Positions 42,707-63,542 of a stretch of 64,000 nt of DNA are shown here, one piece after another (positions within the stretch are counted from its first letter, which is position 1; each line of letters begins with the position of its first letter). Both the position numbers and the translations under genes were made by a program. Origin of the DNA: Cellulomonas shaoxiangyii (GTDB lineage: Bacteria; Actinomycetota; Actinomycetes; Actinomycetales; Cellulomonadaceae). The DNA lies in the NCBI RefSeq assembly GCF_004798685.1, contig NZ_CP039291.1:3782001-3846000 (forward strand), read 5' to 3'. The notes under the pieces were generated by a model. The model was not told the DNA's origin. It did not search any database and saw only the letters and a program-made list of their open reading frames with translations.

Positions 42707-42716
42707 CACCGACGCG

Positions 42717-42774: not shown

Positions 42775-42788
42775 GTGGCGGCCTTCCG

Positions 42789-44690
42789 TCATGACCTCGG
42801 GCGCGTGGGTCCCTTCGGCTCGAGCCGGGCGACGGCGTCCGCGAGCGCGGCGGTCGCCTCGTTGACCTGGGCCTGGGTGCCGCCCCTGGCCAGGACGGCG
42901 TTCGCGCGGCCCAACGCCTTCTTCACCGCGGCGACGGTCTTGCCGGTGTAGGTGTGACCGCGAAGGTCGAGCGCCGAGGCCTCGGCGACGGTCTCCTCGA
43001 GCGTCGAGGTGTCGGTGATGGGCCTGCGGACGCCGAGCCAGCGCTCCGGGTCGGCGACGGCGGCCGCAGCGAGCTTCTCGGAGAAGTCGCTGTTGAGCAG
43101 CAGCGGGTTGTGGGTGGACCGCCAGCTGAGCTGGTCCGTCAGGCCCCAGAAGGTCACCCGGTTGATGTCCTGCGAGTACTTCTTGTAGACCGCGAAGTAC
43201 TCCGCGAACCGCTGCGCCTGGATGCGCTCCAGCTCCGCGCGGTTGCTGATCTTGCCGACCCAGTAGTCGAACTCGCCGCGGGAGATCCGGTCCTTGACCG
43301 ACGGGTCGGTCAGGTCGCGGTACGCCGCCCGGTCGTCACCCTCCGGCTGACCGTTCCACGCCTCCCACACCTGCAGGTCCAGCTCGCTGATGTCGGCCGT
43401 CATGCCGGCCTCGATGATCATCTGCAGGGACCGCTCCACCGAGGCGGCGTCGGAGCACGCCCCGGGCTGCCACTCGGCGGCGGCGTCGTCGGACAGCCGG
43501 GGCAGGCGCGTGTGGTCCGAACAGGCGAAGGCCGGCGTCTGGTTGATGTAGTTGTGCGACTGGAGGCCGATCGTCTCCACGAGCAGCCGCGGGTCCTCGG
43601 GGTGCTCGGCGGCGTACCGCTCGTTCAGGTCCGTGGCCATCGCGACGATCGCCTGGGCCTTGCCCTCGGACTGGAAGACGTTGAAGTCGTTGTACACGAG
43701 CCGCGTCTCCGGCCCGTACGTGCGGGCCAGGACGAACGCGTCGTACAGGAAGTCCGCCGGGCTCTCCCCGGCCGCCGTGTCCGCGCCGTTGGCGTAGGCC
43801 GCGTACCAGTTGGACCAGCCGCCGTTCGGGCCGCCGCGCAGGTAGTCGCGCCAGTCCTCGGTCTCGGGGTCGAACTCCGCGAGCCCGTCGACGAACGCCT
43901 CGTTGACCACGTCCCAGGAGACGGCGCGGCCACGGAAGTGGGTGAGCACCTCCTGGATGTAGCGCTCCATGTTCGCCCGTGCCTGCGCGCGGGTGCCGCC
44001 CGTGGTGCCGCTGTTGATGCGGGCCGGCGACTGGCCGTGCCAGACGAGCACGTGCCCGTGGACCTTCATGCCGCGCGCGAGGGTCTGGTCGACGAAGGCG
44101 TCCGCGGCGGCGAAGTCGAACGTGAACTCACCGGTCTCCGGGTCGATGTTGTCGTTCGGCAGCAGCTGGTCCGGCTTCATGTTGTTCTCGGCCGTCATGA
44201 CGTTGTAGTGCCGCTCGACCGTCGCCGAGTTCGGCGACCCCGCCGCGTAGGTCTGCGGGCCCGAGTAGATGTTGCCCACGTCGAAGTGGTCCCGGTAGAC
44301 GTGCTTCAGCGGAGCCATCTCGCGCCGGAACGTCGTCTCGAGCACGACGTCCTCCGCGGGCATCGTGAACGAGTCGACGCGCGCCCCGATCCACCCGAGC
44401 TCGGGCGACGTCCAGCCGCCCCACACGTGGGACCTGCCCGGGTCCGCCGTCAGCACGACGGTCTCACCGGCCTCGTAGCTGCCCTCCCCCGTCACCGTCC
44501 CGCGCCCGGAGACGCGGATGTCGACCTCGAACGTGTCGTCCGGGGCGGCGGCCTGGGCCGGCGCGGCGAGGCCGACGGCCGCGAGCACGAGCGCCGTGGC
44601 GGCTCCCGTCCACCGCGCCGCCCGGCGCCGGCCGTCCCGTGGCCCCGCCCCTGGTGCACCCGCACGCCGTCGTGTGGCAAGCCCAGTCAT
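42789..44690 (-). CDS. Secreted GH10 xylanase with InlB-type repeat and FIVAR-like domains
   Basis: A secreted protein of 633 residues. Signal peptide about 20-52 (WTGAATALVLAAVGLAAPAQ). A Bacterial_repeat/InlB-B-type beta module at about 53-115 (GRGTVTGEGSYEAGETVVLT). The GH10 barrel spans about 120-550, with acid/base Glu264 in WDVVNEAF and nucleophile Glu436 in ISELDLQV. The C-terminus (about 570-633, LDLRGHTYTGKTVAAVKKAL) resembles FIVAR sugar-binding/spacer modules. No classic cellulose-binding module is seen; the unusual end modules may tether it to the cell surface or glycans. ATG 44690 has AGAGGAACC upstream. It is convergent with GH27. Confidence 0.92.
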   Translation of the reverse strand: MTGLATRRRAGAPGAGPRDGRRRAARWTGAATALVLAAVGLAAPAQAAAPDDTFEVDIRVSGRGTVTGEGSYEAGETVVLTADPGRSHVWGGWTSPELGWIGARVDSFTMPAEDVVLETTFRREMAPLKHVYRDHFDVGNIYSGPQTYAAGSPNSATVERHYNVMTAENNMKPDQLLPNDNIDPETGEFTFDFAAADAFVDQTLARGMKVHGHVLVWHGQSPARINSGTTGGTRAQARANMERYIQEVLTHFRGRAVSWDVVNEAFVDGLAEFDPETEDWRDYLRGGPNGGWSNWYAAYANGADTAAGESPADFLYDAFVLARTYGPETRLVYNDFNVFQSEGKAQAIVAMATDLNERYAAEHPEDPRLLVETIGLQSHNYINQTPAFACSDHTRLPRLSDDAAAEWQPGACSDAASVERSLQMIIEAGMTADISELDLQVWEAWNGQPEGDDRAAYRDLTDPSVKDRISRGEFDYWVGKISNRAELERIQAQRFAEYFAVYKKYSQDINRVTFWGLTDQLSWRSTHNPLLLNSDFSEKLAAAAVADPERWLGVRRPITDTSTLEETVAEASALDLRGHTYTGKTVAAVKKALGRANAVLARGGTQAQVNEATAALADAVARLEPKGPTRPRS

Positions 44691-45009
44691 CTGAGGTTCC
44701 TCTCGCTGTCCCGCTCGGAGCCGGTGCCGCGGCGGAGATCTGCCGTCGCGCCGACGTCTGGCACGTCCCTGCGCACGAGTCCCGGGACCCCTCGCTGACG
44801 TCGTCGACAGCCACCCCGGGCACAGCGCGATCACGCCTTCACCGGTGGAGGCGTCGTCGTCGACGCACACCGGTCAGTAGGCCGTGTGGGTGACACGCTA
44901 GGTAGGCCCCCCGGGGGCGTCAAGGGCGACGGCGCCGGGCCCGCGCGCGCCGGCCGGGGCGCCCTCGGCGCCGCCGGACGGGTGCGGGCGCGGGTGCGGG
45001 CACGCCGAC
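44691..45009. other. Intergenic region upstream of the GH10 gene
   Basis: About 320 bases without a credible gene, between two leftward GH10 genes. It contains the promoter of the 44690 gene; on the minus strand TAGCGT near 44900 could be a -10 box. GGCCCCCCGGGGGC (44906-44919) is a short palindrome. No lac-type operator is present, unlike upstream of GH43 and GH27. The segment 44930-45000 is extremely GC-rich and repetitive (GGGTGCGGGCGCGGGTGCGG). Confidence 0.5.
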
Positions 45010-45045
45010 GCGGAGCACCGGCCCCCGCGGGGACCGGTGCTCCGC
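45010..45045 (-). terminator. Terminator of the multidomain GH10 gene
   Basis: GCGGAGCACCGG (45010-45021) pairs with CCGGTGCTCCGC (45034-45045), with CCCC/GGGG able to extend the stem inward. It lies 17 bases beyond the stop codon at 45062. Confidence 0.7.
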
Positions 45046-45061
45046 CCGACGCCGGTCCGGC

Positions 45062-47449
45062 TCAGCCGCAGACGGCGCCCGCGTGCCCGGCCTGGTACGT
45101 CGTCAGGGCGCCCTGCCACCCGGCGACCTTGACGCCCGTGACGTTGACGTGGCCTGCGGCGACGCTCGTCCCCGGCGCGGTCCACGTGTGCTCGAAGGAC
45201 GCCCCCGGCCACAGGACCGTCCCCGCGACCGTCCACCACGGGGTCGTCGCGGCGACGACCACGGGGACCCGCTCGGCGTTGCGCACGTGCACGGTGACCC
45301 GCGGCCGCCCGTCGACGCACTGCGCCTGCCCCGACACGGTGAGCGCCACCGCGCGCGGCGTGCCGGGCAGCGCCGACGGCGTCACCGACGCGGACGGTGC
45401 CGACGGCGCGGAGTCGCCCGCGGCGTTCGTCGCGACGACCGTGAACGTGTACGCGCGGCCGTTCGTCAGGCCGGTGACCTCGCACGACGTCGCGTCGGTC
45501 GTGCACGTCGCACCACCGGGCGACGCGGTGACGGTCGTCGCGGTGACCGGGCTGCCGCCGTCCTCGGCCGGCGGCGTCCACGACACCGTCGCGGCTCCGT
45601 CCCCGGCGGTGGCCCGCACGTCGGTGGGCGCCGCCGGCGGGGTGGCCGGCGGGGCGACCGCGCCCGGCCACGTCACGAGGACCTCGTCGCCGGCCGGGGA
45701 CACCCGCTCCACCGTGATCCGGTTGATCGAGAAGGCGTTGCCGCCCCCGCCCCCGCGGACGCCGATGTTGCCGATCAGCCCGTCGGCCGGCTGCGACCCG
45801 TCCATCGTGATCTCGCTGACGAGGTCGTAGCTGCCCATGTTCACCATGCCGCTGTTGAAGTACGCGGGCAGCTGCGTGGCGACCTGGTTCGCGGCGTACG
45901 GGTGGGCGTTGACGAGCGCGCCGTCGGCGCTCGTGTAGCCGCCGTTGGTGTTGTCCCTGACCCAGCGGACCCGGATCGCCGTCGTGCCCTTGGCGGTGTA
46001 GTTCACCGTGACGCGGTAGGTCGCGCCCGGCTCGGGCCGGAACGCCACCTCGCCGTCGTCCGTCGTGGACCACGGCCACGCCGACGCGTCGTCGCCGAGG
46101 ACGATGTTCGCCCCGCTCCAGGGGTCGCCGGCCGAGGTGTCGAAGACGTGCACGCCGGGGACGGGAGCGGGCTCCTGGCCGCCCGTGGTGTCGATGTACT
46201 CGTGCGTGGCGAGGAACTCGTCCGGGTAGAGGATGCCCAGGAGCGCGAGCTTGGCGTTGCCGTCGTAGTCGTACGGCATGGCGAACTCGCCGCCCTTCCA
46301 GCCGGTCACCACGTCGCGGACGCCCGCGAGCTTCACGGCGGTGACGACCTTGGGGTTGCCGGTCGTGTTGGCCGGGCCGGCCGCGTAGTCGCGGTAGATG
46401 CGGAACAGCTCGGCGTACTTCATGCCCTGGTTGTTCTCGTTCTCGGGCGTCAGCTCGCCGGGCGGCAGGGCGATGTCCATCTCCGTGACGTTGACCTCGA
46501 CGTTCCCCAGCGTCGCGAAGAGCCGGATGTTCTCCTCGACGTCCGCGACGTCGGTGGCCAGGCCGTAGTGGCCCTGCATGCCGATGACCTCGATCAGCGG
46601 CTTGCCGTCGGGCCGGACGCCGGCGTGGCGGGCGTTGATGTCCTTGACCATCTCGTAGACGACGCGGGCCTTGGCCGGGGAGTCCAGGCCGAAGTCGTTG
46701 TACGTGAGCTTCACGTCCCAGCCGTTGGCGTCGACCACCTCGGCCGCCTTGAGGAAGGCGAGCTCGACCCACTCGGCGCCCAGCGCCTGGTACCAGCCCT
46801 CGCCCTTGGCCAGCGAGGCCCGCCAGTCGGCGGGGTTCGCGGTGCCGACGGCCTCGTTGACCACGTCGATCGCGACCAGGCGCTCGCCGAAGTGCCCGAG
46901 CACCGTCTCGATGTGCGTGTTCAGGTTCTCCAGCGCCACCGCGCGGTCGAACGTGCCCGGCTGGTCGAACCGGGCCGGGGGCGCGTCCCACATCCACGTC
47001 GGCGTCTGGGAGTGCCAGGCGAGGGTGTGGCCGTAGAACGCCAGGTCGGGGTTGCGCGCCGCGTGCTCGGCGAAGGCCGCCTCCGCCGCGTCGAACGTGA
47101 AGACGCCCTTGTCCCGCTGGGTGCTCTCGGGCTTCATCTCGTTGCCCGGCGTGTAGGACGCGTAGTTGTGGATGAGGCCGTTCATCTCGCCGCGGCCGAA
47201 GATGCCGAAGGAGAAGTAGTCCGCGTAGACCTCCTTCATCGGCGGGTAGTGCTCGAAGGTCTGCCCGGGGGGCGGGAGCTCCGGCTCGGGGGGCGCGACG
47301 GCCGCGTGCCCGGTCCCCAGCGCGGTGAGCGTCATCAGGCCGGCGACCAGGCCGGCCACGACCGGCCGCATCACCCTGCGCCCCCGGCGGGGGTGCCGCG
47401 AGGGGCGCCCCCGTCCGCTCGCCGTGAGTTCTCGTCGCGGATCCGACAT
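45062..47449 (-). CDS. Secreted multidomain GH10 xylanase with beta-sandwich module and FN3
   Basis: A 795-residue secreted xylanase. Signal peptide about 27-52 (RPVVAGLVAGLMTLTALGTG). GH10 barrel about 70-400, acid/base Glu199 in AIDVVNEAVG and nucleophile Glu323 in VNVTEMDIAL. A carbohydrate-binding-like beta-sandwich is at about 415-590 (VHVFDTSAGDPWSGANIVLG, TYRVTVNYTAKGTTAIRVRW), then FN3 (about 600-690, PAAPTDVRATAGDGAATVSW) and a C-terminal beta module with two Cys (about 700-795) similar to actinobacterial cellulose-binding domains in composition but not assignable. ATG 47449 is preceded by GGAGGTCC. It lies divergent from the NB-ARC regulator, with inverted repeats between them. Confidence 0.92.
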   Translation of the reverse strand: MSDPRRELTASGRGRPSRHPRRGRRVMRPVVAGLVAGLMTLTALGTGHAAVAPPEPELPPPGQTFEHYPPMKEVYADYFSFGIFGRGEMNGLIHNYASYTPGNEMKPESTQRDKGVFTFDAAEAAFAEHAARNPDLAFYGHTLAWHSQTPTWMWDAPPARFDQPGTFDRAVALENLNTHIETVLGHFGERLVAIDVVNEAVGTANPADWRASLAKGEGWYQALGAEWVELAFLKAAEVVDANGWDVKLTYNDFGLDSPAKARVVYEMVKDINARHAGVRPDGKPLIEVIGMQGHYGLATDVADVEENIRLFATLGNVEVNVTEMDIALPPGELTPENENNQGMKYAELFRIYRDYAAGPANTTGNPKVVTAVKLAGVRDVVTGWKGGEFAMPYDYDGNAKLALLGILYPDEFLATHEYIDTTGGQEPAPVPGVHVFDTSAGDPWSGANIVLGDDASAWPWSTTDDGEVAFRPEPGATYRVTVNYTAKGTTAIRVRWVRDNTNGGYTSADGALVNAHPYAANQVATQLPAYFNSGMVNMGSYDLVSEITMDGSQPADGLIGNIGVRGGGGGNAFSINRITVERVSPAGDEVLVTWPGAVAPPATPPAAPTDVRATAGDGAATVSWTPPAEDGGSPVTATTVTASPGGATCTTDATSCEVTGLTNGRAYTFTVVATNAAGDSAPSAPSASVTPSALPGTPRAVALTVSGQAQCVDGRPRVTVHVRNAERVPVVVAATTPWWTVAGTVLWPGASFEHTWTAPGTSVAAGHVNVTGVKVAGWQGALTTYQAGHAGAVCG

Positions 47450-47494
47450 GGGACCTCCAGTGATGCCCGGCGCACCGTTGCGCGGGGAGGGTGG

Positions 47495-47530
47495 TGGCAA
47501 CATTGCCAACGTTGCACGTGGCGTTGCCAG
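47495..47530. promoter_or_regulatory. Overlapping inverted repeats upstream of GH10 (LacI-like sites)
   Basis: TGGCAACATTGCCAACGTTG and the following CACGTGGCGTTGCCA (47495-47529) contain GGCAA/TTGCC, GCAAC/GTTGC and the central CAACGTTG. The outer TGGCAAC and GTTGCCA are also inverted copies. The cluster is 46-80 bases upstream of the GH10 start at 47449 and is markedly richer in A/T than its surroundings. LacI-family proteins favour such centres. It is a different sequence from the GH43 operator, so a second regulator is possible. Confidence 0.5.
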
Positions 47531-47654
47531 CGTCGCCGGAGGCGCGAGGCACTGTCAAGGCCACACGCGACGCGTGGCGCGAGCCGCGATGGGGACCCCG
47601 GCAGAGGCCGTGTCGGCGGGGTGGACGGCCCGGCCCCATACCGGACATCTTGGG

Positions 47655-47660
47655 CATGCT
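47655..47660 (+). promoter_or_regulatory. Possible -10 box of a leaderless promoter (NB-ARC regulator)
   Basis: CATGCT is six bases before the GTG at 47667. The match to TANNNT is imperfect, but its spacing equals that of the other leaderless genes here. Confidence 0.35.
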
Positions 47661-47666
47661 GAACCG

Positions 47667-50054
47667 GTGCAGCCGCCGACCCGCCCCGAGGATCAGGAGT
47701 TCGCGCGCCTCCTGATCGCCGCCCGGGAGCACCGGGGCATGTCCCAGGAGTCGCTGGCCGAACGCTCGGGGGTGAGCGTCCGGGCGATCCGTGACCTGGA
47801 GCGCGGCCGGGTCGGCCGACCCCGACGTCAGTCGGCGCAGCTGCTGGCTGCCGGGCTGGGGCTGGCCGGTGCCCGCGCGCGGGAGTTCCTGGCGGCCGCC
47901 GGGGTGGCGGCCGATCCCGGGACCACGTCGGACGGCTTCTGCTCCCTGCCGCCCCCGCCGGTCCTGGCCGGCCGGCAGGCCGAGCTCGCCGCGCTGGTCG
48001 CCGGCGTCTCCGCCCACGACGACGGACGCCCGGGCGGCGTGGTCCTCATCAGCGGGCAGCCCGGTGTCGGCAAGACGGCCGTGGCGGTCGCGGCGGGTTA
48101 CGCGCTGGCGGACCGGTTCCCCGACGGGCAGCTGTTCGTCTCGCTGCACGGTGCCGATGCCGCCCCGCTGTCGCCCGCGGACGCCCTCGGGCAGGTGCTC
48201 GTGGCCCTCGGCGCCGGGCCGGGCCTGCCGACCAGGCTGGAGGAGCGCACGGCGCTGTACCGGGCGCAGCTGCACCGGCGCCGCGTCCTGCTGGTCCTGG
48301 ACGACGCGGCGTCCGAGGCGCAGGTGCGGCAGCTGCTGCCGGTCGGCGGCTCGCTCGCCCTGGTGACCGCGCGGCGCCGGCTGGCCGGGCTGCACGTCAC
48401 CGACCGGGTCTTCCTGGACGTGCTCGACGAGGCGGGCGCCGGCCGCATGGTGGAGTCCATCGTCGGGTCGCAGCGCTGCGACGCCGAGCCGGAGGCCGTG
48501 GGCCTGCTCACCGCGGCCTGCGGGCGGCTCCCCCTGGCCCTGAGGGTCGCGGCCAACCGGCTGGCGAGCCGGCCGCACTGGACGCTCCGCCAGCTCGTCG
48601 ACCGGCTCGCCGACGAGCGCAGGCGGCTGAGCGAGCTGAAGGCCGGCGACCTGAGCGTGCGGGGACCGTTCGAGATGTCGTACGGGCAGCTGAGCGGGCG
48701 CGCGGCGACCCTGTTCCGGCGGCTGGCCCTGCTCGCGACCGGCGAGTTCGACGGCGGCCTCAGCGCACCCCTGCTCGGCACCGGCCGGTGCGCGGCGGAC
48801 GGCCCGCTGGACGAGCTGGTGGAGGCGAGCCTGATCGAGTCGACCGGCCCGGACCGGTACCGGCTGCACGACCTCACCCGGATCTTCGCCGCCTGCAAGC
48901 TCACGGCCGACCCCGCGTCCGAGCGCGACGCCGCCCGGCTCCGGCTCGACGACTTCGTGCTGGTCACGACGATCCGCGCCGGGGCGCACTTCGACGCTGA
49001 CGAGACCGTGCAGACCCGGCTGCGGCGGTGGGACGGCGGGTGGACGCCGGGGAGCAGGGACGAGGCGGCGCGCTGGCTGGCGCTGGAGTCGGCGCAGTGG
49101 CTCGCGTCGCTGCACCGCGCCGCGCACGAGGGCCGGTACGCCCTGGTGGTGGACGTCTGCGAGGCGATGCACTGGTACTCGGACCGCCACCACGCCGCCG
49201 AGGTCTGGCCGCAGGTGTTCACGCTCGGCGTGCAGGCGGCCCGGGCCGGCGGACTGCGCGCGCACGAGGCGCAGCAGCGCAACTACCTGGGGTGGGCGCT
49301 GCACATCTGCGCGGGCCGGCGCACCGCGGCCGTCGCGGAGCACGAGTCGGCGCGGGCGATCGCGCGCGAGGCGGGCGACCGGAAGGAGGAGGCGTGGGCG
49401 CTGATGTACCTGAGCTGGCTCCAGGTGCGCGAGGAGCCGGACGAGGCGATCGCACGGTGCCGTGACGCGGTGCGCCTGATGGCCGGCGCCCGCCACGTGC
49501 AGGGCACCGCGCACGCGCGGTTCTACCTCGGCGTCGTCCTGCACGAGGCGGGGCGGTTCGCGGAGGCGGAGGACGAGCTGCGCGAGGCCGAGGACGGGCA
49601 CCTGGCGCAGCTCGTGGCCGACGGGGCGGACGTCCAGGCGGCCGACGGCCTCGGGTTCGTCCGTCTGTGGCGGGCGCGCAACCTCCTGCGCCTCGACAGC
49701 CCGCAGCCGGCGCTGCGCAAGGCGCAGGAGGCGGCCGACGGGTTCCGCGAGCAGCGCAACCCGCGGGGCCTGGCGCGCGCGCTGCTGGCGGCGGCCGAGG
49801 CGGACGCGCAGCAGGGCGACCTCCGGGGGGCGATCCGCCGCCTCGACGTGGCCGCCGACCTGTTCGCGCAGCTGGCGGCGACCCGGTTCGAGGCCGAGTC
49901 CCTGCTCGTCGCGGCCGACCTGTACGAGCGGGTCGGCCGCCGGGACCGCGCGCTCGCGACCTGGGAGCGCGCCTCGGAGCTGGCCGCGCAGATCGAGGGA
50001 GAGCAGGGGCGGCTGCTGCGCGAGCGCGCGTCGAGGGGCTCGACCGCCCCCTGA
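47667..50054 (+). CDS. XRE-HTH / NB-ARC / TPR transcriptional regulator (STAND ATPase)
   Basis: A 795-residue regulator placed just before the polyketide operon. Domains: XRE helix-turn-helix (about 10-65, RGMSQESLAERSGVSVRAIR), P-loop ATPase of the NB-ARC type (GQPGVGKTAVA near 130, VLLVLDDAASEAQVRQLLPV near 207, GRLPLALRVAANRL near 285), and TPR-like helical repeats (about 480-790). The ATPase probably acts as a ligand- or nucleotide-gated switch. I chose GTG 47667 because codons between ATG 47589 and it often end in A or T (CAT, CTT, GCT, GAA), unlike real genes here, and because family members begin close to the HTH. It most likely activates the seven-gene operon that begins 300 bases downstream. 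Confidence 0.87.
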   Translation: MQPPTRPEDQEFARLLIAAREHRGMSQESLAERSGVSVRAIRDLERGRVGRPRRQSAQLLAAGLGLAGARAREFLAAAGVAADPGTTSDGFCSLPPPPVLAGRQAELAALVAGVSAHDDGRPGGVVLISGQPGVGKTAVAVAAGYALADRFPDGQLFVSLHGADAAPLSPADALGQVLVALGAGPGLPTRLEERTALYRAQLHRRRVLLVLDDAASEAQVRQLLPVGGSLALVTARRRLAGLHVTDRVFLDVLDEAGAGRMVESIVGSQRCDAEPEAVGLLTAACGRLPLALRVAANRLASRPHWTLRQLVDRLADERRRLSELKAGDLSVRGPFEMSYGQLSGRAATLFRRLALLATGEFDGGLSAPLLGTGRCAADGPLDELVEASLIESTGPDRYRLHDLTRIFAACKLTADPASERDAARLRLDDFVLVTTIRAGAHFDADETVQTRLRRWDGGWTPGSRDEAARWLALESAQWLASLHRAAHEGRYALVVDVCEAMHWYSDRHHAAEVWPQVFTLGVQAARAGGLRAHEAQQRNYLGWALHICAGRRTAAVAEHESARAIAREAGDRKEEAWALMYLSWLQVREEPDEAIARCRDAVRLMAGARHVQGTAHARFYLGVVLHEAGRFAEAEDELREAEDGHLAQLVADGADVQAADGLGFVRLWRARNLLRLDSPQPALRKAQEAADGFREQRNPRGLARALLAAAEADAQQGDLRGAIRRLDVAADLFAQLAATRFEAESLLVAADLYERVGRRDRALATWERASELAAQIEGEQGRLLRERASRGSTAP

Positions 50055-50355: not shown

Positions 50356-51561
50356 ATGCGCCCGACCGCACCCCGGCACGCCCTGCCGGCCGCACACGGT
50401 GCGGACACCGGGGACGCGGCGAGCCCGTCGGTCCTGCTGTTCTCCGGGTTCGGGGCCTCCGGTCCCGGCCACGTCCGTCAGCTCCAGGAGCTCTACCGCC
50501 GGCCGTCCTACCGGCCGCTGCTGGAGGCGGCCTCGGACGCCGTCGACCGGGCGGTCCACCGGTTCGGCGAGCCGGGCGTCCAGCACCTGCTGCCCGGGGG
50601 CATCCCGCTGCGGGCGTGGCTGCGCGCAGCGACCCCGCCCCCGGCGGCTGCCCTGCGCCTGTCCGCCGTCGAGGGCGTGCTGACGCACCTGAGCCACCTG
50701 TGCCTCCTGCAGCCGGACGAGGGGGCTGCCGCTGCGGCGCACCGCGCGGCGCCCACGGTCGGGCCGGCCACCGGGCCGGTCGTCGGCCTCGGTCACAGCC
50801 TCGGGCTCATCTCGGCGGTCGTCGCGGGGCTCCGCCGCGAGGGTGGGCAGCAGTTCCTCCGCGACGCCCACGAGTCCATGACGATGACCGTGCTCACGCT
50901 GCTGCGCTGCCAGGAGGCGGCCGGTGACCAGCGACCGGACCCGGCCCTCGCACGCCGTTACGGCGAGCTCGGTGGTGGACGCGACCGTCCCGGCCCCATG
51001 GCCGCCGTGTCGGGGGTGGACGTGGCGACGGTCCGCGACCTGGTGGCCGAGCACCACGCCGGCGGTGGGCAGCCCGTCGAGGTCGGGCTCGTGAACGGCC
51101 CCCGGGACGCCGTGCTCTGCGGGAGCCCCACCGGGCTGCTCGAGCTCTGGTCGCGGCAGCAGGGCACCCTGGCCGGCGCGGGCGCGAGCTGGGCGTTCCT
51201 GAACAGCTCCGTGCCCTTCCACAACAGCCGGCTGGCGCCGGTCCTCGACCACCTGGCCGCCGACCGCGAGTGGGCGAAGGCGTCGATCTCCGGTGAACGG
51301 CTGGCGGCGCCCGTCTACGCCACGGACGAGCCCCGGAACCTGCAGCAGGTCACCGACCTCTACACCGACTGCCTCTCCCAGGTCATCTGCCGGCCGTTGG
51401 ACTGGACGGCGACGCTGCGCTCGGTGATGGCCGAGCACCGGCCCTCCCGGGTCTACGACTTCGGGCCCGGGGTGGCCGTGCGGATGTTCACCCGCAAGTA
51501 CCTGGAGCAGCGGGGCCACGCCCTGGAGTACGTCTCGGTCCGCTCGCCCCCGGCGCGCTGA
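50356..51561 (+). CDS. Free-standing acyltransferase, FabD/SAT-like
   Basis: A 401-residue protein with the malonyl/acyl-transferase fold: VLLFSGFGASGPGHVRQLQE at the N-terminus, nucleophile Ser148 in GLGHSLGL, and the catalytic His289 in SVPFHNS. A normal malonyl transferase has GAFH instead, and the motif FSGFGASG replaces FxGQGxQ. This and the 50-residue insertions resemble starter-unit acyl transferases of iterative synthases. It probably loads an acyl starter onto the ACP encoded downstream. ATG 50356 has GGGGGAC seven bases upstream. It is the first of seven genes that run to 61961. Confidence 0.8.
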   Translation: MRPTAPRHALPAAHGADTGDAASPSVLLFSGFGASGPGHVRQLQELYRRPSYRPLLEAASDAVDRAVHRFGEPGVQHLLPGGIPLRAWLRAATPPPAAALRLSAVEGVLTHLSHLCLLQPDEGAAAAAHRAAPTVGPATGPVVGLGHSLGLISAVVAGLRREGGQQFLRDAHESMTMTVLTLLRCQEAAGDQRPDPALARRYGELGGGRDRPGPMAAVSGVDVATVRDLVAEHHAGGGQPVEVGLVNGPRDAVLCGSPTGLLELWSRQQGTLAGAGASWAFLNSSVPFHNSRLAPVLDHLAADREWAKASISGERLAAPVYATDEPRNLQQVTDLYTDCLSQVICRPLDWTATLRSVMAEHRPSRVYDFGPGVAVRMFTRKYLEQRGHALEYVSVRSPPAR

Positions 51562-51629
51562 CGCTCGTCCTGCCACCGGCGCCACCGCAGGGCCGGCGGG
51601 TCACATCCGATCGAACGAGAGGCTCACAC

Positions 51630-52466
51630 ATGCGTGCCCTGGTATTCGCCGGGCAGGGGATCCAGCGCAAGGGGATGGGCGCCGGCCTGTTCGAGCGCTA
51701 CGACGCCCTCGTCGCCGAGGCGGACAGCGTCCTCGGCTGGTCCCTGCGCGAGCTCTGCGAGACGGGTGACACCGGCCGCCTGACGGACACCCGCTACGCC
51801 CAGCCGGCCATCTTCATGGTCAACGCGCTGCACGCCCTCGCGCGGGCCGACGAGGGCGGCGGCGACTACCCCGTGTACGCCGGCCACAGCCTCGGTGAGC
51901 TCAACGCGCTGGTCGCCGCCGGGATGCTGGACCTGGTCACCGGGCTGCGCCTGGTGCGGGAGCGCGGCCTGGCGATGGCGGCGGTCACCGGCGGTGGCAT
52001 GGTGGCGGTGACCGGGCTCGGCGCCGACCGCGTCGAGCAGGTGGTCCGGGGCAGCGGCCTGACGCAGGTCTTCCTGGCCAACCGCAACAGCGACCAGCAG
52101 GTGACCCTCGGCGGCGAGAGCACCCAGCTCGGCCTGGCGTCCCGGCTGCTGCGCTCCGCGGGCGCCCGGCAGGTGCTCCCGCTGCGCGTCGGCGGCGCGT
52201 TCCACACCCCGCTGATGGCGCCGGCGCAGGCGCGGTTCGCCCGGGCCCTCGAGGGCGTCACGTTCACCCGCGGGCACGGGGTCGTCGTCTCCGGCGTCAC
52301 CGGTGCGGAGGTGGACCCGGACTCCGCGCCCGCGCTGCTCACGCGGCAGATCGTGGCACCGGTGCAGTGGGTCGAGGTGGTCCGTCGGATGCGCCGGCTC
52401 GGCGTCACCGAGGTCGACGAGCTGGGCAGCACGACGCTCACGACGATGATGCGGGCGGTCCGGTGA
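51630..52466 (+). CDS. Malonyl-CoA:ACP transacylase, trans-acting AT
   Basis: A 278-residue FabD-type acyltransferase that moves malonyl (or a substituted malonyl) group from CoA to an acyl carrier protein. MRALVFAGQGIQRKGMG is the N-terminal motif; Ser87 in YAGHSLGELNALVAAG is the nucleophile; His192 in GGAFHTPLM completes the dyad. The GAFH sequence favours malonyl over methylmalonyl. As the PKS encoded two genes later has no AT domain, this protein probably supplies its extender units in trans. Its stop overlaps the GTG of the next gene (GTGA). A second copy specific for fatty acid synthesis would be expected elsewhere in the genome. Confidence 0.93.
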   Translation: MRALVFAGQGIQRKGMGAGLFERYDALVAEADSVLGWSLRELCETGDTGRLTDTRYAQPAIFMVNALHALARADEGGGDYPVYAGHSLGELNALVAAGMLDLVTGLRLVRERGLAMAAVTGGGMVAVTGLGADRVEQVVRGSGLTQVFLANRNSDQQVTLGGESTQLGLASRLLRSAGARQVLPLRVGGAFHTPLMAPAQARFARALEGVTFTRGHGVVVSGVTGAEVDPDSAPALLTRQIVAPVQWVEVVRRMRRLGVTEVDELGSTTLTTMMRAVR

Positions 52467-53596
52467 CCGCGCCCGGGACGACGACGCCCGCGACGGCCGC
52501 GCCCCCGGCCGTGGTGGGCGACGTCGCCGAGGTGGTGCCGACCCGCGTCGGGCCCGTCCTGCGGCTGGCCGCGACGGACCGGATCGCGAACGCCGACCCG
52601 GCCATGTACCTCGAGTGCCGCCAGCGGCAGGCCCTGTCGTACCTGCGCGCGGTGACCGCCTCCGCCGACCTGCTCAAGTACCGGGCACTGGGCAGCACCG
52701 CCGAGTTCCACCGGCACTGCGCGATCCAGCAGCAGCCGCGCTGGACCATGTCGCAGGACCTGTGCGGGCCCGAGGACCTCGCGGCGCTCGGGTACGAGGT
52801 CCAGCTGCTCGGCCACGCCGACCTCGGCCTCCTGCCGCGGCTGCGCGAGCTGGTGCAGGCCGGTCAGCCGGTCACGTTCTACGCGCCGGCCGAGGACGTC
52901 GGCTACTGGGCCGACCTGCTGCGCCGCCGTGGACGCCCCGACGGCGGCGGGCGCGGCGCGCACGGCGTCCTGGTCTGCGGCGTCTCGCTGGACGGCGAGT
53001 GGCTGGTGACCCCGGACACGACCGACGAGGGGCCCGAGTTCCGCACCGAGCTCCTCTCCGTGGCGGGGCTCAGGGTGGCCGCCGCCGCCGACCCCGAGGG
53101 CTGGTTCGTGGACGCCCTGAGCCTGCGTCGGGCTGCTCCCGCGCAGCCCGACGTGTTCGCGGACCGCTACCGCGAGATGGTCACCGGCCTGCAGGACGGG
53201 TTCGAGGCGTACGAGGCGCTGCCCCAGCTGCTCGCGGCCGACCGGGCCCGGCGCCCGGACCTCGACCAGCAGGTCGCGAGCACCGACCTGCTGCGGATGC
53301 TCGCCGGGTCGCGGGGCCTGTTCAGCCAGTTCGTGCGGAACACGTCGCACAGCGGGCCCGCGGTGGCCACCTACCGGGCCCTGGGGGTGAGCCTGTCCCG
53401 GCTGCTCGGCCGCGCCATGGGCTACGTCGCGGGCGACGGGCCCGCCGACCTCGGTTCGTGGCGACGCGACCTGCGGACCCTGCGCACGGCCGAGGTCACG
53501 GGCCTGCGCCGCCTGAAGGACGAGCTGGCTGCCGGCCCCGTGTCGGTCGCCCTCCCCGCCGAACGTGACCGACCGACGCCTCCCCAGCCGCACTGA
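52463..53596 (+). CDS. BtrH-like putative acyl/aminoacyl transferase (papain-like C-H-D)
   Basis: A 377-residue soluble protein. The first two-thirds resemble the BtrH_N family (butirosin BtrH), a papain-like fold that transfers an acyl group from a carrier protein to an amine. Residues compatible with the triad are Cys52 (YLECRQRQALSYL), His167 (GAHGVLVCGV) and Asp185 (LVTPDTTDEG), in that order and spacing. The C-terminal third is helical, as in DUF4872. The gene is coupled to the transacylase by a GTGA overlap and precedes the PKS by 16 bases. It could offload the product from the ACP. Family assignment is moderate and no experimental counterpart in PKS clusters is known to me. Confidence 0.6.
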   Translation: MTAPGTTTPATAAPPAVVGDVAEVVPTRVGPVLRLAATDRIANADPAMYLECRQRQALSYLRAVTASADLLKYRALGSTAEFHRHCAIQQQPRWTMSQDLCGPEDLAALGYEVQLLGHADLGLLPRLRELVQAGQPVTFYAPAEDVGYWADLLRRRGRPDGGGRGAHGVLVCGVSLDGEWLVTPDTTDEGPEFRTELLSVAGLRVAAAADPEGWFVDALSLRRAAPAQPDVFADRYREMVTGLQDGFEAYEALPQLLAADRARRPDLDQQVASTDLLRMLAGSRGLFSQFVRNTSHSGPAVATYRALGVSLSRLLGRAMGYVAGDGPADLGSWRRDLRTLRTAEVTGLRRLKDELAAGPVSVALPAERDRPTPPQPH

Positions 53597-53612
53597 GAGA
53601 AGGGCTCCCCGC

Positions 53613-57253
<3,641 letters not shown>

Positions 57254-57257
<4 letters not shown>

Positions 57258-58882
57258 CCGGAGCCGGCCTCACCGCCGCTCCGGGCCGTGCCGACCCGGC
57301 ACCCACGCGCGCAGCGGGCACCCCCGCAGCCGAGCCGTCCCGGGTCGTGGCCGGCGTGCCCGCGCTGCTCCTGCGGCGGCCCGAGCTCCTGGTGGCCGCG
57401 GGCCTGTTCGTGGTGCTGCTCGCGACCGCCGGCAGGTACGGGTGGTTCAACGACGAGCTGTACTTCATCCGCGCAGGTCAGGAGCCGGCCTGGGCGTACG
57501 CGGACCAGCCGTTCCTCAACCCGGTCCTCCTCAGCCTGCTGCACGACCTGACCGGTGGCCACCTCGTCGCGGTGCGGGCGGTGGCGGCGCTGGCGAGCTG
57601 CGCCTGCGTCGTCCTCGTGGGGTCGATGGCGGGGTCGATGGGCGCGGGGGCCGCCGGCCGCGCGACCGCCGCGGGCCTGTGGGCGGGCACCGGCAGCGCC
57701 CTGGTCAACGGCCACGTGTTCGTCACCGGCACGTTCGACCTGCTCGCGAGCGCGGCGATGTGCTGGTGCCTGGTCCGGGCCATCGCCACCCGGGACCCCC
57801 GCTGGGTCGCCGTGGCGGGGCTGGCCCTGGGGTTCGGGCTGACCAACAAGATGCTCGTCGGCGCCCTGGCGGGGTGCCTGGCGCTCGCGCTGCTGCTCGT
57901 CGGCCCGCGCTGGGTGCTGCGTTCCCGCTGGACCGTGATCGGGGCGGTGCCCGCCGTCCTCGCGGCCGCGCCCTACGTGTACTTCCAGGCGACGCACGGC
58001 TGGCCGCAGAGCAGCGTCGCCGCCTCGATCTCGACGCTGGCCGAGACCCGGCCACCGGGTCAGCTGCTGGCCCAGCTCACGATGCTCTCGGTCCCTGCCG
58101 TGGCGCTGTGGGTCGGCGGCGTGGTGCACCTGTTCCGGACCGAGCGGCTGCGCCCGTTCCGGTTCTTCGCCGTCGGCTACCTGCTGCTGCTCGTCTCCGT
58201 GCTGGTGCTGCACGGGCGGGGCTACTACACCAACGGCGTGGGCCCGGTGCTGGCCGCCCTGGGCGGCCTGGCAGGCGAGGCGTGGCTGCGGCGCGGGCGC
58301 GCGGGGCGCTCCACGCGCGTGCGCCGCGCCGCCGTGGCGGCCACCCTCGGCGTCGCCCTCGCCGTCGGCGTGGTGTTCTCCCTCCCGGTGATCCCCGCCG
58401 CCCGGCTCGAGGCCAGCGGCGTGGGCCGGCTGAACCCGATGCTGATCGACGAGGTCGGCTGGCGCCGCGTCGCCGAGACCGTCGCGGAGGTCCACCGCAG
58501 CGTCCCCACCGCGCAGCGCGACGAGACCGTCGTCCTCACCACCAGCTACGCCAGCGCCGGGGCGGTCGACGTCTACGGCCCCGACCTCGGGCTGCCCCGG
58601 GCGTTCAGCGGGCACAACGGCTACGGCGCGTGGGGGCCGCCGACCGGTGACGGTCCCGTCATCCTCGTCGGGTTCGAGAGCCCGGCCGCGGTGTCCGGTG
58701 CCTTCCGGGGCTGCCGCCCGGCGGCGGTGACCGACAACGGCCTGGGACTGACCAACAGCACGCAGGGCCTGCCGGTGCTGCTGTGCGCGGGACCGCTCCG
58801 GCCGTGGCCCGAGCTGTGGCCCGAGCTGGTCCACCACGACCTGGGCCTGGACCGCACCCTGCCGGGCGCCGGGTCCTCGTGA
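57254..58882 (+). CDS. Membrane glycosyltransferase, GT39/ArnT-like (first)
   Basis: A polytopic membrane protein of 542 residues with about ten to twelve helices. YGWFNDELYFIRAGQEPAWA then YADQPFLNPVLLSLL is the first extracytoplasmic loop of the PMT/ArnT family, with the paired acidic residues that bind the polyprenyl-phosphate sugar. A soluble C-terminal domain (about 420-542, DETVVLTTSYASAGAVDVYG, PAAVTDNGLGLTNS) lies outside the membrane. It transfers a sugar from a lipid carrier onto a lipid or protein acceptor on the outer face. It is linked to the PKS by an ATGA overlap, so the acceptor is probably the pathway product. Confidence 0.88.
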
Positions 58883-60327
58883 CCCGGGCGGCGAGGGCGC
58901 CGGAGCCGCCGGACCGTGCGGCGCCCGAGCCGCCGGAGCGCACGGGCCCGGTCGACCGCACGGACCTGACCCGCGGGCCGGTGCTGCGCCGGACCCTCGC
59001 CTACGCGCTGCCGGTGGCCGTGACCAACCTCCTGCAGCAGACGTACCTGCTGGTCGACACCGCGGTCGTCGGGCACCTCCTGGGGCGCCCGGGGATGGCG
59101 GCGGTGGGGGTCAGCCAGGGGCTGGTGTACGTGCTGTCGGCGGGGTCGTTCGGCATCGGCGGCGCGTTCGCGATCCGCCTCGGGCAGCTCAAGGGGGCCG
59201 GGCGGGACACCCGCGCGACCCTGCGCGCGCTCGCCCTGAGCACGGTCGCCTGGGCGCTGGTCTGCCTGGTCCTGACGCTCGGCCTGGCCGGGCCGGCGCT
59301 GGCCGCCATGGGCGCCGAGGGGCAGCTCGCGGACGACGCCCGCAGGTTCCTGACCACGCTCGGCTGCGGCCTGGTCGCCGTCTTCGCGCTCGGCTCGGTC
59401 ACCGCCGTCCACGCCGGACGTGGTGACTCCCGCACCGCGATGCTGCTGCTCGCGTCGAGCAACGTCCTCAACGCGGCCCTCGTCTGGCTGTTCGTCGGAC
59501 CGCTCGGCCTCGGGCTGGAGGGAGCCGCCCTGGCGACGATCGCGGCCAGCGGGCTCGCCGCGGTCGTCGGCCTGCGCGGGCTGACCCGCACGCGGGGTCG
59601 CCCCGACGCGCGAGCGGACGTCGGGGGCGTGCGGGCGGAGCTGCGGGCCGGCCTGAGCCTCGGCGCACCGATCACGGCGCAGCACCTGGTGATCGCGCTG
59701 GGCGCCACGCTGCTGCTCGGGATCGTCACCACCTCGGGGACCGCGGTGCTGGCCGGGGTGACGGTCGTGGTCCGGCTGGAGACGTTCGCCGCCCTGGCGT
59801 TCATCGCCCTCGCGTCCGGGCTGTCGGCGACGGTGGCCCAGAACGCCGGCGCCGGTCAACCGGACCGCATCCGGACGGCGCTGACCGGGTGCGTCCGGTT
59901 GACCGCCGGTCTCGGCGTCGTCGTCTCCGCCGTGCTGGTCCTCTGCCGTGACCTCGTGGCCACGCTGTTCGTCGCGGACCCGGCGGTGGCGGAGGTGATC
60001 AGCCGGTACGTCGCGATCACGTACCCGTTCTTCACCTGCTACCTGCTGATGGTCGTCGTCCACGGGTACCTCACGGGGCTGGGGCGGACGGCGGTGCCGC
60101 TGGTCTGCACGGTGCTGTCGTTCGCCGTCGTCCGGCTGCCGCTGTCGGCCGTCTGGAGCGACCGGTACGGGCTCGACGGCCTCATCTGGGCGGTCGTCGT
60201 CGGGTGGGTGGTGGGGCTGGCGTACACCGTGCTCGCCGTGCTGCCGGGCGGCCGGCGACCAGGGCGACCACGAGGCCCGGACCGCCGGCCGCTGGCCGTC
60301 GAGGCACGGGAGGCGACGCCGGCGTGA
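58879..60327 (+). CDS. MATE-family efflux transporter
   Basis: A 482-residue multidrug and toxin extrusion transporter with about twelve helices. TLAYALPVAVTNLLQQTYLL, VDTAVVGHLLGRPGMAAVGV and IGGAFAIRLGQLKGAG fit helices 1-3 of the family, with the second half a repeat (SLGAPITAQHLVIALGATLL). DinF-like proteins have the same length. It would export the product, driven by Na+ or H+. It is coupled at both ends by GTGA overlaps, between the two glycosyltransferase genes, which places it firmly in the polyketide pathway. The first 30 residues are Pro/Arg-rich and cytosolic. Confidence 0.92.
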   Translation: MTRAARAPEPPDRAAPEPPERTGPVDRTDLTRGPVLRRTLAYALPVAVTNLLQQTYLLVDTAVVGHLLGRPGMAAVGVSQGLVYVLSAGSFGIGGAFAIRLGQLKGAGRDTRATLRALALSTVAWALVCLVLTLGLAGPALAAMGAEGQLADDARRFLTTLGCGLVAVFALGSVTAVHAGRGDSRTAMLLLASSNVLNAALVWLFVGPLGLGLEGAALATIAASGLAAVVGLRGLTRTRGRPDARADVGGVRAELRAGLSLGAPITAQHLVIALGATLLLGIVTTSGTAVLAGVTVVVRLETFAALAFIALASGLSATVAQNAGAGQPDRIRTALTGCVRLTAGLGVVVSAVLVLCRDLVATLFVADPAVAEVISRYVAITYPFFTCYLLMVVVHGYLTGLGRTAVPLVCTVLSFAVVRLPLSAVWSDRYGLDGLIWAVVVGWVVGLAYTVLAVLPGGRRPGRPRGPDRRPLAVEAREATPA

Positions 60328-61961
60328 GCGTCTCGGTGGACGAGCGGCGGCACGAACCGCTGCACGGGCGCCGGGGACGGGTCGTCCCGTGGGTCCTGCG
60401 GTCGCTGCCCCTGACGGCGGTCCTGCTCGCGGTCGCGGTGCTGTACGGCACGAACCTGGGCGGCTACCCGGCCTTCGTCAACGACGACGAGGGGACGTAC
60501 TACGCGCAGGCGTGGGCCGTGCTCACGCAGGGCCGGCTGACCCACTACTCCTACTGGTACGACCACCCGCCGCTGGGATGGATCCAGCTGGCCGCGGGGC
60601 TGCCGCTGGGGCGACGGCTGTCGGGCGACGCACCCGTGCTGGTCGGCGGGCGGGCCGTCATGGCCGCGGTGATGGTCGTCTCCGCGGCTCTGCTGCACCG
60701 CGTCGCGGGCAACCTGGGCCTGCCCCGGGCTGCGCGACTCGTCGTGGTCCTGGTCTGGTGCCTGTCCCCGCTGACGGTGTTCCTCGGGCGGCAGGTCCTG
60801 CTCGACTCCGTCGCGCTCGCGTGGCTGCTCGCCTCCGTCGCGGCGGCGACGGGCCCCGGCGACCGGCGTCGGCACGTGCTGTCCGGGCTGTGCTTCGGCA
60901 TCGCCGTCCTCAGCAAGGAGACCGCCCTCCTCGCCGGGCCGGGCATCCTGGTGGCCCTGTGCACCGTCGGGGGCGGCCGGCCACGACGGCGGGCCGTCAC
61001 CGACTGGCTCGCGGCCGCGGGGCTCGTGCCCGGGTGCTACCTCCTGGTCACCGCGCTCGCCGGCGACGCGCCGGCCCTGCTCGGCGCGGTCGCGTGGCAG
61101 CTCGGCGGCCGGGAGGGCTCGGGGTCCGTCCTGGACGCCGGCTCGGTGGCCCACGGGGTGCTCGCCTCGTGGCTCGCCCACGACCCGTACCTCCTCCTGG
61201 TCGGGACCGCCGTCGCGCCGCTCGCGCTCCTCTCGCGGACCGGCCGGGGCATCGCGCTGATCCCCCTCGTCCTGGTGGCAGCGGGGCTGCGGCCCGGGGG
61301 GTACCTGCCGGCCATGCACGCGATCCTCGTGCTGCCCTTCCTGGCCCTGGTCGTCGTGCACACCGCGTGGCGGGCGTGGCGGACCGTGCGGGACCGCGGG
61401 CACGCACCCGCTCCGCTCCCCCGGCCGGCCGCGACCGCCGCCCGGGCCGCCCCCGCGGTGCTGGTGGCCCTGGTGGCGGCCGCCGTGGTCGTGGTCGCCC
61501 CGCCGTGGGCGAGGGGTGCCCGTGCGGCCCTGACCCAGGACCACAACGCCCCCTACCGGCAGGCACTGGCGTTCGTCGCCACGCGCGTGCCGCGCGACAC
61601 CGTCGTGCTCACCGACGACACCACCTGGAACGACCTGGTCCGCCTCGGCTGGAGCGGCGACGGGTGGGAGGGACCCCTCTGGCACTACAAGCTCGACCGG
61701 GACCCGGACGCCGCGGCCCACCTGCCCGACGGGTGGCGCGACGTCGACTACGTCCTCGCCGGCCGCGGCATGGGGTCGCTCCTCGGGACCGACGCCATCA
61801 GCTGGCAGCAGTCCCCGCAGGTGCTGAGCGCGTGGCAGAACAGCACGGTGGTGCGGGCGTGGGGCCCGGCGGACGCGCAGGTCGTGCTGCGCAGGGTCGA
61901 CCCGGACGGCACCGACGGGTGCGTGCGGTGGACCTGCCCGGCGCACGAGCCGACGTGGTGA
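60324..61961 (+). CDS. Membrane glycosyltransferase, GT39/PMT-like (second)
   Basis: A membrane protein of 545 residues with a different sequence from the other GT39 gene of the operon. VNDDEGTYYAQAWAVLTQG with Asp/Glu in the first loop and YWYDHPPLGWIQLAAG are the conserved family segments. About eleven helices are followed by an extracytoplasmic domain (about 400-545, VPRDTVVLTDDTTWNDLVRL) like that of mycobacterial and archaeal relatives. It should use a polyprenyl-phosphate sugar. Two different GT39 enzymes suggest two sugars or two attachment sites. GTG 60324 overlaps the stop of the MATE gene. It is the last gene of the operon. Confidence 0.88.
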   Translation: MSVSVDERRHEPLHGRRGRVVPWVLRSLPLTAVLLAVAVLYGTNLGGYPAFVNDDEGTYYAQAWAVLTQGRLTHYSYWYDHPPLGWIQLAAGLPLGRRLSGDAPVLVGGRAVMAAVMVVSAALLHRVAGNLGLPRAARLVVVLVWCLSPLTVFLGRQVLLDSVALAWLLASVAAATGPGDRRRHVLSGLCFGIAVLSKETALLAGPGILVALCTVGGGRPRRRAVTDWLAAAGLVPGCYLLVTALAGDAPALLGAVAWQLGGREGSGSVLDAGSVAHGVLASWLAHDPYLLLVGTAVAPLALLSRTGRGIALIPLVLVAAGLRPGGYLPAMHAILVLPFLALVVVHTAWRAWRTVRDRGHAPAPLPRPAATAARAAPAVLVALVAAAVVVVAPPWARGARAALTQDHNAPYRQALAFVATRVPRDTVVLTDDTTWNDLVRLGWSGDGWEGPLWHYKLDRDPDAAAHLPDGWRDVDYVLAGRGMGSLLGTDAISWQQSPQVLSAWQNSTVVRAWGPADAQVVLRRVDPDGTDGCVRWTCPAHEPTW

Positions 61962-62117: not shown

Positions 62118-63542
62118 ATGTCGAGGACGCGCAGGACGACGGCAGGGGCTCTGCTGGGGGCGGTCGCGCTCGTCGCGGTGGGTGCGATCACGGCGGTGAG
62201 CACCCCCGCGCAGGCCGTGCAGACCACCACGAACGTCGCGTACGCCCCGGCGGAACCCGCGGGCAGCCGCGGCCACCTGCTGGACCTGTACGTCCCCGAC
62301 GGCGCCGGCCCGTGGCCGCTCGTCGTCTGGTCCACGGGGTCCGCGTGGACGTCGGACGACGGCAAGTCCGGGGCGAGCGCGATCGCCCAGCAGCTCAACC
62401 CGCGCGGTATCGCCGTCGCCGGCGTCAGCGTCCGGTCCAGCTCGCAGGCGAAGTTCCCCGCGCAGGTGCACGACGTCAAGGCGGCGATCCGCTTCCTGCG
62501 CAGCAACGCGACGCAGTACCGGCTCGACCCGCAGCGCTTCGCCAGCATGGGCGACTCCTCGGGCGGATGGGTCGCCGCGATGGCTGCCGTCTCGGGCGGC
62601 GACGCGTACCTCGAGGGGCGGGTCGGCACCACGGGCGTGTCGAGCGCCGTGCAGGCGGGCGTCGACTTCTTCGGGCCCACCGACTTCTCCCGCCTGAAGG
62701 AGCAGAACCCCGGCGGATTCATCGACCATGACAGCATCAACGCCCCCGAGGGCCAGCTCCTCGGCTGCGCGACCCCGACCTGCCCGGACAAGGTGCGGCA
62801 GGCCAACCCCCTGGCGTACGTCGACGCCCAGGACCCGCCGATGCTCCTGCTGCACGGGCGGGCCGACAACGTCGTCCCGCACGCGCAGACCGAGATCTTC
62901 TACGACGCGCTCAAGGCCGCGTGCGTCGACACCCAGTTCTTCTCCGTGCCCGGTGCCGGTCACAGCCACGCCGACGTCACGAGCTCGTCGCGCTACGGCC
63001 AGCAGACGGTCCGCACCGTCGAGGGCTGCCGGGAGACGGTCACGCAGGGCACGCCGAACCCCAGCTGGGACACGATCGCCGCGTTCCTCAAGGACGCGTG
63101 GGCGGACGCGGGCCCGGGGCCGACCCCCTCGGTCACCCCGACGCCCTCGGTCACCCCGACTCCCTCGGTGACGCCCACGCCGTCCGTCACCCCCACGCCC
63201 TCCGTGACCCCGACGCCCACCCCCACCCCGACGCCCACCCAGGGCACGGGTGCCGGGTGCACGGCGACCTACCGGCTGGCGAACAGCTGGCCGAACGGCT
63301 TCGTCTCGGACGTGACGGTCACGGCAGGCAGCAGGGCGATCAACGGCTGGCGCGTCACCGTGACGCTGCCCTCCGGTGCCAGCGCGACGCAGGTGTGGAA
63401 CGGGCAGTCCACCGCAGGCGCCCCGCTCACCGTGACCAACGCCTCCTGGAACGGGCGGGTCGAGGCCGGCCGCAGCACGACGTTCGGCTTCCAGGGCACC
63501 GGGAACGGAGCGGGTGCGACGGTGACGTGCGTCGCGTCCTGA
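62118..63542 (+). CDS. Secreted alpha/beta-hydrolase esterase with C-terminal CBM2
   Basis: A 474-residue secreted esterase. Signal peptide 1-33 (TAGALLGAVALVAVGAITAV). Alpha/beta-hydrolase domain about 40-330 of the acetyl-hydrolase/BD-FAE type: nucleophile Ser147 in MGDSSGGWVAA, Asp in LLLHGRADNVVP and His in PGAGHSHAD. A TPSVTP-type linker (about 335-373) leads to a CBM2 (about 378-474, GCTATYRLANSWPNGFVSDV). The CBM2 points to plant cell wall substrates, so removal of acetyl or feruloyl groups from xylan is likely. ATG 62118 follows GGGAGGGACGGTC. It lies 156 bases after the polyketide operon and seems unrelated to it. Confidence 0.9.
   Translation: MSRTRRTTAGALLGAVALVAVGAITAVSTPAQAVQTTTNVAYAPAEPAGSRGHLLDLYVPDGAGPWPLVVWSTGSAWTSDDGKSGASAIAQQLNPRGIAVAGVSVRSSSQAKFPAQVHDVKAAIRFLRSNATQYRLDPQRFASMGDSSGGWVAAMAAVSGGDAYLEGRVGTTGVSSAVQAGVDFFGPTDFSRLKEQNPGGFIDHDSINAPEGQLLGCATPTCPDKVRQANPLAYVDAQDPPMLLLHGRADNVVPHAQTEIFYDALKAACVDTQFFSVPGAGHSHADVTSSSRYGQQTVRTVEGCRETVTQGTPNPSWDTIAAFLKDAWADAGPGPTPSVTPTPSVTPTPSVTPTPSVTPTPSVTPTPTPTPTPTQGTGAGCTATYRLANSWPNGFVSDVTVTAGSRAINGWRVTVTLPSGASATQVWNGQSTAGAPLTVTNASWNGRVEAGRSTTFGFQGTGNGAGATVTCVAS
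63117..63243 (+). repeat. 18-bp tandem repeats encoding the esterase linker
   Basis: Five or more copies of a unit near CCCTCGGTCACCCCGACG encode PSVTPT repeats, continuing into a PTPTPT stretch. In frame; a flexible linker before CBM2. Confidence 0.75.

Follow-up and report, generated by a model that had tools for sequence, protein, structure and literature searches.

The locus studied here raises the question of what a compact operon of Cellulomonas shaoxiangyii, built around one small polyketide synthase (PKS), would make, and how the growing chain would be started and released. The window that we analyzed comprises 64,000 nucleotides (bases 3782001–3846000 of a 3.91 Mb single-contig genome) and contains seven consecutive open reading frames (ORFs), here termed g1 to g7, all on the + strand and all ending in TGA. 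A previous interpretation of this DNA from its letters alone (the sequence-only reading) described a one-direction operon of a PKS lacking its own acyltransferase (AT), two discrete ATs, a BtrH-like offloading enzyme, two GT39 glycosyltransferases and a MATE exporter. Re-reading of all boundaries, starts and stops bore out the seven-gene arrangement: g1 and g2 are spaced by 68 bases, g3 and g4 by a 16-base gap, GTGA overlaps join g2/g3, g5/g6 and g6/g7, and an ATGA overlap joins g4/g5. The tight linkage evident in those overlaps and that gap extends over six genes (g2–g7), not the last five as had been stated. The interpretation as a whole is partly supported by the results below. We propose, with a probability of roughly 0.6, that this is an uncharacterized actinobacterial cluster whose core is a type I PKS that is split and AT-less, with its genes playing the roles set out in this report; the suggested product is an acyl amide or ester that leaves the cell by export.

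The synthase itself, g4 (53613..57257, +), is a protein of 1214 amino acids in which Pfam recognizes a ketosynthase (KS), a ketoreductase (KR) and a PP-binding domain (the acyl carrier protein, ACP), and neither an AT nor a thioesterase. The interval between KS and KR contains remnants of CurL-like and RhiE-like linkers, and Beta-ketacyl_N matches weakly, below its cutoff. The residues that we take to be the catalytic positions are intact, with C182, H316 and H356 of the KS present in all 25 loci of the family described below, and K958, S982, Y995 and N999 of the KR, together with S1164 of the ACP, present in all 24 loci with an alignment long enough to cover them. Pfam and the residue alignment thus agree with the description of an intact KS, KR and ACP in a protein without AT or thioesterase. 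The missing AT is encoded separately, in trans, as had been anticipated: g2 (51630..52466, +) matches Pfam Acyl_transf_1 and a FabD-like model (223.7 bits, under the equivalog cutoff of 260.9), has S87, R112 and H192 in 25/25 loci, and is, as judged from its sequence, the FabD-type malonyl loader. A KS protein without AT and a separately encoded malonyl AT are what is expected of an AT-less PKS.

A tree of 40 KS domains, which carried no labeled trans-AT reference KS, placed the 10 family sequences in a single clade (97/97). This clade adjoins eight KS-KR-ACP proteins (P0180–P0186 and P0188; one of them named, from Rugamonas). The enclosing set of 25 sequences (100/99), which includes a KS-DH-KR-ACP-C protein (P0202), consists of proteins without an AT profile, except for P0195; the split is not clean, in that P0199, P0205 and P0206 also have no AT profile yet lie outside it. 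Also outside are the AT-bearing P0190–P0192 and P0197, the genome's own modular KS (L002) and a mycobacterial KS (L013). The short KS proteins of the genome (L003 and L004, taken as FabF-like from their length) are far from the family. Grouping with a housekeeping synthase, the outcome that the sequence-only reading had named in advance as fatal to its proposal, did not appear.

The family set comprises 25 distinct loci including the window, mostly on stretches of 15–24 kb (only 7 kb for L010 and 5 kb for L053). A scan of genome contigs with the PKS yielded the members L010 (62% identity), L012 (52%) and L011 (46%); L049 duplicates L012 and does not enter the count separately. Three further products of that scan, L013–L015, match as ordinary PKSs and were left out of the locus counts, and their KS domains were still used in the tree. 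Another 21 loci were located solely via g1, and the presence of g1 in those 21 of the 25 is therefore true by construction. Across the set, all 25 loci have both g2 and g4, 24 have g1, and 23 have the MATE gene g6 (58879..60327, +; Pfam MatE). The two loci without MATE, L010 and L053, are on contigs that stop inside the PKS gene, and all uncut loci have it; the proposed exporter is thus a core gene. Because g2 and g4 are always found together, with g1 in 24 loci and MATE in all 23 uncut ones, we do not regard this gene set as a chance assembly.

In the genus of G398, a g1 profile gave five strong matches (E < 1e-140) in 343 genomes, and 220 further genomes match weakly (E of 6.8e-14 or more); the profile also gave two matches among 296 genomes of the class, one being G398, and 12 among 250 genomes of the family of G294. 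A g1 protein search of 354 genomes in the latter family found 17, namely the same 12 plus five more, and none exceeded 41% identity. In protein searches the g3 and PKS proteins of Plantactinospora (72–76% identity) are among the nearest relatives, and the PKS is also found in Saccharothrix, Kitasatospora, Actinokineospora and others; at least 92 close PKS relatives (P0087–P0178, 1417 bits or more) are present among the 120 matches listed. Two neighboring genes in members of the set may be mentioned here. A carboxyltransferase gene follows the MATE gene in L011 (Streptomyces sp. NRRL S-646; L011:14882-16672), and may serve extender supply or reflect a different starter route. A DUF5933-PAP2 protein is encoded close to three Streptomyces clusters, on varying sides (L012:13820-15472, L050:12164-13486 and L051:12797-14173).

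Both discrete ATs of the sequence-only reading are present, and they are not equivalent: the one encoded by g1 (50356..51561, +) resembles a stand-alone starter-loading acetyltransferase, of the type found in fungal fatty acid synthase (FAS) and in starter-unit AT (SAT) domains. It matches the Pfam SAT profile (PF16073) at 25.5 bits against a cutoff of 22.8, and 11 of 28 g1 members match that profile at E<=0.001 while 17 do not. Structure comparison supports a predicted fold that corresponds over its whole length to the AT domain of microbial FAS (in the yeast FAS beta subunit presumably residues 151–534), at about 21% identity to FAS and 14% to the SAT of CazM. A Ser/His dyad (S148, H289) is accompanied by Q186 where a malonate-binding Arg would be; across 24 loci that position, read from a profile alignment that has a gap of 13 residues close by, is Q in seven and H in 17.

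The putative release enzyme, g3 (52463..53596, +), has no match in Pfam, with the threshold relaxed to E<=10, none in NCBIfam and, by sequence, none among solved structures. A structure model generated from 22 sequences (pLDDT, the predicted local distance difference test, of 87.5) was matched by Foldseek to CcbD at ranks 1–6 (E from 1.9e-5) and to CtaG at ranks 7–14. Its VIA-align 2 scores were 16.8 for a chain of the AziU3/U2 complex, 16.4 for CcbD (284 residues, 3.6 Å, 18% identity) and 15.4 for CtaG (290 residues, 4.6 Å, 8% identity); a C39-like peptidase and phytochelatin synthase come next, far lower, at 8.6. The model therefore supports a papain-type CcbD/CtaG fold over the whole protein. 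BtrH_N is described as near the C39 and C70 families in PMC10318531; no BtrH structure is among the g3 structure matches listed, which excludes nothing.

Three candidate catalytic residues of g3, C52, H167 and D185, are invariant in 22/22 alignment rows (a pairwise alignment reads N at 185 in L012, and D in 9/10). They follow the catalytic order of Cys, His and Asp/Glu with nearly the same sequence spacing as in the solved relatives: 115 and 18 residues, vs 117 and 16 for C11, H128 and D144 of CtaG, and vs 112 between C19 and His131 of CcbD (the CtaG residues and C19 are named in the titles of structures of variants, His131 in PMC12945683). An alternative nucleophile, C86 of an invariant H85-C86 pair, was rejected in favor of C52, because C52 immediately precedes a helix of the predicted structure and the spacing of H167 and D185 fits CtaG and CcbD. 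Papain-type nucleophiles sit at the start of a helix. The account of CcbD and LmbD in PMC12945683 is of amide formation from a carrier-protein-bound acyl group by a ping-pong mechanism with a Cys-His-Glu triad, with fatty acyl groups also accepted by CcbD.

A further indication of the function of g3 came from the loci that lack it, which carry another protein of about 475 amino acids in its place. Searches of six-frame translations of the 25 loci, using profiles of g3 (22 rows) and of this condensation-type protein (7 rows), detected g3 in 10 loci and the condensation-type protein in the other 15; within these stretches, mostly 15–24 kb and much shorter in L010 and L053, no locus contains both and none contains neither. 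Pfam Condensation (PF00668) is present in both of those scanned (L054 and L068, of the 15), and SHxxxD in all 15; compared with the usual condensation motif, HHxxxDG, the second His and the Asp are kept and the first His is lost. All 15 loci fall in the family of G294, where g3 is found in 2 of 17 loci. On the PKS tree the condensation type requires two changes: 14 loci form one clade (100/100), and L068 stands separately; since the branches that separate L068 are below star level, one origin is possible. The occupation of one slot by two unrelated proteins is our strongest hint that g3 releases the chain by acyl transfer. Given this mutual exclusion and the predicted fold, the BtrH-like label holds for the predicted fold and probably for the mode of working; membership in the Pfam family is the part of that label that did not stand.

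We infer the following route. The product of g1 would load a non-carboxylated starter, most likely acetyl, and that of g2 would place malonyl on the ACP; the KS would then condense and the KR reduce, leaving an ACP-bound chain after one or more cycles. This chain would be a 3-hydroxyacyl group, because the operon has no dehydratase (DH) or enoylreductase (ER); in general PKS chemistry, one acetyl-primed cycle without either gives 3-hydroxybutyryl. The chain would be taken onto Cys52 of g3 and transferred to an acceptor drawn from general metabolism, most probably at an amine and with less likelihood at a hydroxyl, a step that in related clusters the condensation-type protein would perform instead. 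The MATE protein would export the product, and outside the cell g5 and g7 may add sugar to it or to some other substrate. MATE proteins often export cations, and a basic amine acceptor would, as a guess, suit such an exporter.

Several observations weigh against this route. The enzyme activities and the product are predictions from the genes. The BtrH_N profile finds nothing in g3 at E<=10. No acceptor gene was recognized in the operon, nor any conserved one among that part of the cluster neighbors scanned with Pfam. The activity of the condensation-type protein is likewise unproven, because SHxxxD replaces HHxxxDG, and the exchange itself rests on few events, since it involves one bacterial family, two changes and maybe a single origin. 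A profile search found g1 absent from L011, so that loading by g1 is not universal across the family, and the passages of PMC11775670 on trans-AT acyl hydrolases describe Gln at the Arg position as a mark of those enzymes also. The last two points are those that would be expected if g1 were an editing acyl hydrolase of the PksD/PedC type that clears stalled acetyl groups, with the KS priming itself, for example from decarboxylated malonyl; Gln or another residue does occupy that position in g1 (Q in 7/24 loci, H in 17/24). The structure comparison lists other folds first, and no acyl hydrolase is among the g1 structure matches listed (this excludes nothing). We consider an editing role unlikely. 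As for g3, it might be a papain-fold thioesterase or ester-forming transferase rather than an amide synthase: papain folds are mostly hydrolases, and an acceptor for the acyl group has yet to be recognized. CtaG and AziU belong to natural-product pathways, as does CcbD, which is an amide synthase, so that all three closest solved relatives of g3 come from such pathways; replacement by a condensation-type protein also points to group transfer, and a hydrolytic or ester-forming g3 appears unlikely.

A housekeeping role for the KS, or one in the synthesis of cell-envelope lipids, is very improbable. The KS does match NCBIfam mycobacterial lipid synthase models, below their cutoffs, but in the tree it is distant from the short KS proteins and apart from the modular, AT-bearing ones, and the putative release gene beside it, g3, has one strong match, itself, in 200 genomes of the window's own family (G081 is second, at 20.8 bits). 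The alternative is far more evenly balanced for the two accessory GT39/PMT_2 membrane glycosyltransferases, g5 (57254..58882, +; DELY and DQP motifs) and g7 (60324..61961, +; DEGTY and DHP motifs). Both carry D-E type motifs and exceed the PMT_2 cutoff of 26.1 bits (49.4 for g5 and 30.7 for g7), and glycosylation had been read as a feature of the class. That claim is weakened by the family, in which g5 homologs occur in 2/25 loci (the window and L066) and g7 in 1/25 (the window only). Relatives of g5 are found in 29/138 genomes of the class, its own genome among them, so that its presence is unremarkable and the idea that it is specific to such clusters was rejected; in G1103 the g5 relative is on contig C112 and the cluster on C89. 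It is about as likely as not that the GT39 proteins work for the cell envelope, share only a transcript with the cluster and leave the product unglycosylated. Set against this, start-stop overlaps tie g5 and g7 to the operon in the window, and the g5 relative of L066 (G1151) lies directly upstream of g3, an adjacency that is suggestive because it is the sole g5 relative found in that genome. It is possible that g5 and g7 act on the cluster product.

Among known systems, trans-AT PKSs with a discrete AT and acyl hydrolase come closest to the proposed AT-less synthase, in having a KS without AT, a malonyl AT in trans and a second AT-like protein, and most of the relatives that surround the g4 KS in the tree lack an AT. 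Unlike them, the cluster has a single-module protein, release by separate proteins with no thioesterase match, and a second AT-like protein that resembles a fungal FAS acetyltransferase. With the AT of fungal FAS beta and the SAT domains of CazM and CTB1, g1 shares the full-length fold, the Ser/His pair and the lack of the malonate Arg; it differs in being free-standing and bacterial, and in its low identity to them. The whole-protein fold of g3 is that of CcbD/LmbD (lincosamides), CtaG (closthioamide) and AziU3/U2 (azinomycin), and its Cys, His and acid residues are spaced nearly as in such enzymes; it has 6–18% identity to CcbD, CtaG and AziU3/U2 and, unlike them, probably works with a PKS ACP. 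From BtrH (butirosin) it is set apart by having no BtrH_N match, and no BtrH structure was among those compared. Stand-alone condensation-type acyltransferases (PF00668) have their counterpart in the 15 clusters missing g3, and differ in the SHxxxD motif found there and in being absent from the window operon.

No paper on this gene set was found in the full-text literature, a search whose scope left aside most subscription papers and MIBiG, and we classify the cluster as an apparently new variant of trans-AT PKS clusters. A bolder proposal is that it represents an undescribed PKS class made of exchangeable parts (a free FAS-type starter AT, an AT-less KS-KR-ACP protein and a release position at which clusters otherwise alike carry a papain-like or an unrelated condensation-like fold), with the exported amide of the window decorated with sugar by g5 and g7; we hold this tentatively, at somewhat less than even odds. 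If true, five core genes in many actinobacterial genera would provide a small natural test of PKS priming and unloading, to which the exchange of the release protein adds. A fungal-FAS-type starter loader existing as a free bacterial enzyme would bear on the origin of the fused fungal domains, and a PKS release enzyme with a possible capacity for amide formation from free amines would be useful for engineering.

Upstream of g1, and overlooked by the sequence-only reading, is an AfsR-like ORF (47325..50054, +) with helix-turn-helix, NB-ARC/AAA and tetratricopeptide repeat regions by Pfam; it scores 303.5 bits with the NCBIfam AfsR model, under the cutoff of 1430, and is the probable cluster regulator. 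Similar genes are also present at L066 (43%) and L068 (39%), thus at 3 of the 25 loci including the window. A promoter and terminator scan found nothing, about the same as for shuffled sequence.

Plant-polymer enzymes flank the operon (window 4145-5686, 36644-47509 and 62118-63542), among them an arabinofuranosidase C-terminal domain, GH43, GH5 with CBM2/CBM46, a melibiase and two GH10 proteins, as well as a feruloyl-esterase-like protein with CBM2. About 5 kb ahead of the window is a hybrid cluster (L008:544-4224 and 5455-15366; G000:C1 3762544-3777366) that encodes a 3303-residue protein with KS, AT, condensation and AMP-binding matches and two carrier matches, and one of 1226 residues that matches condensation, carrier and reductase profiles. 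On the − strand of the window are a 1245-residue FG-GAP repeat protein (5841-9578), of which a short C-terminal piece matches the TcdB_toxin_midN profile (a profile match and no more), and an open reading frame of 2382 residues (13776-20924) with high G+C content at third codon positions.
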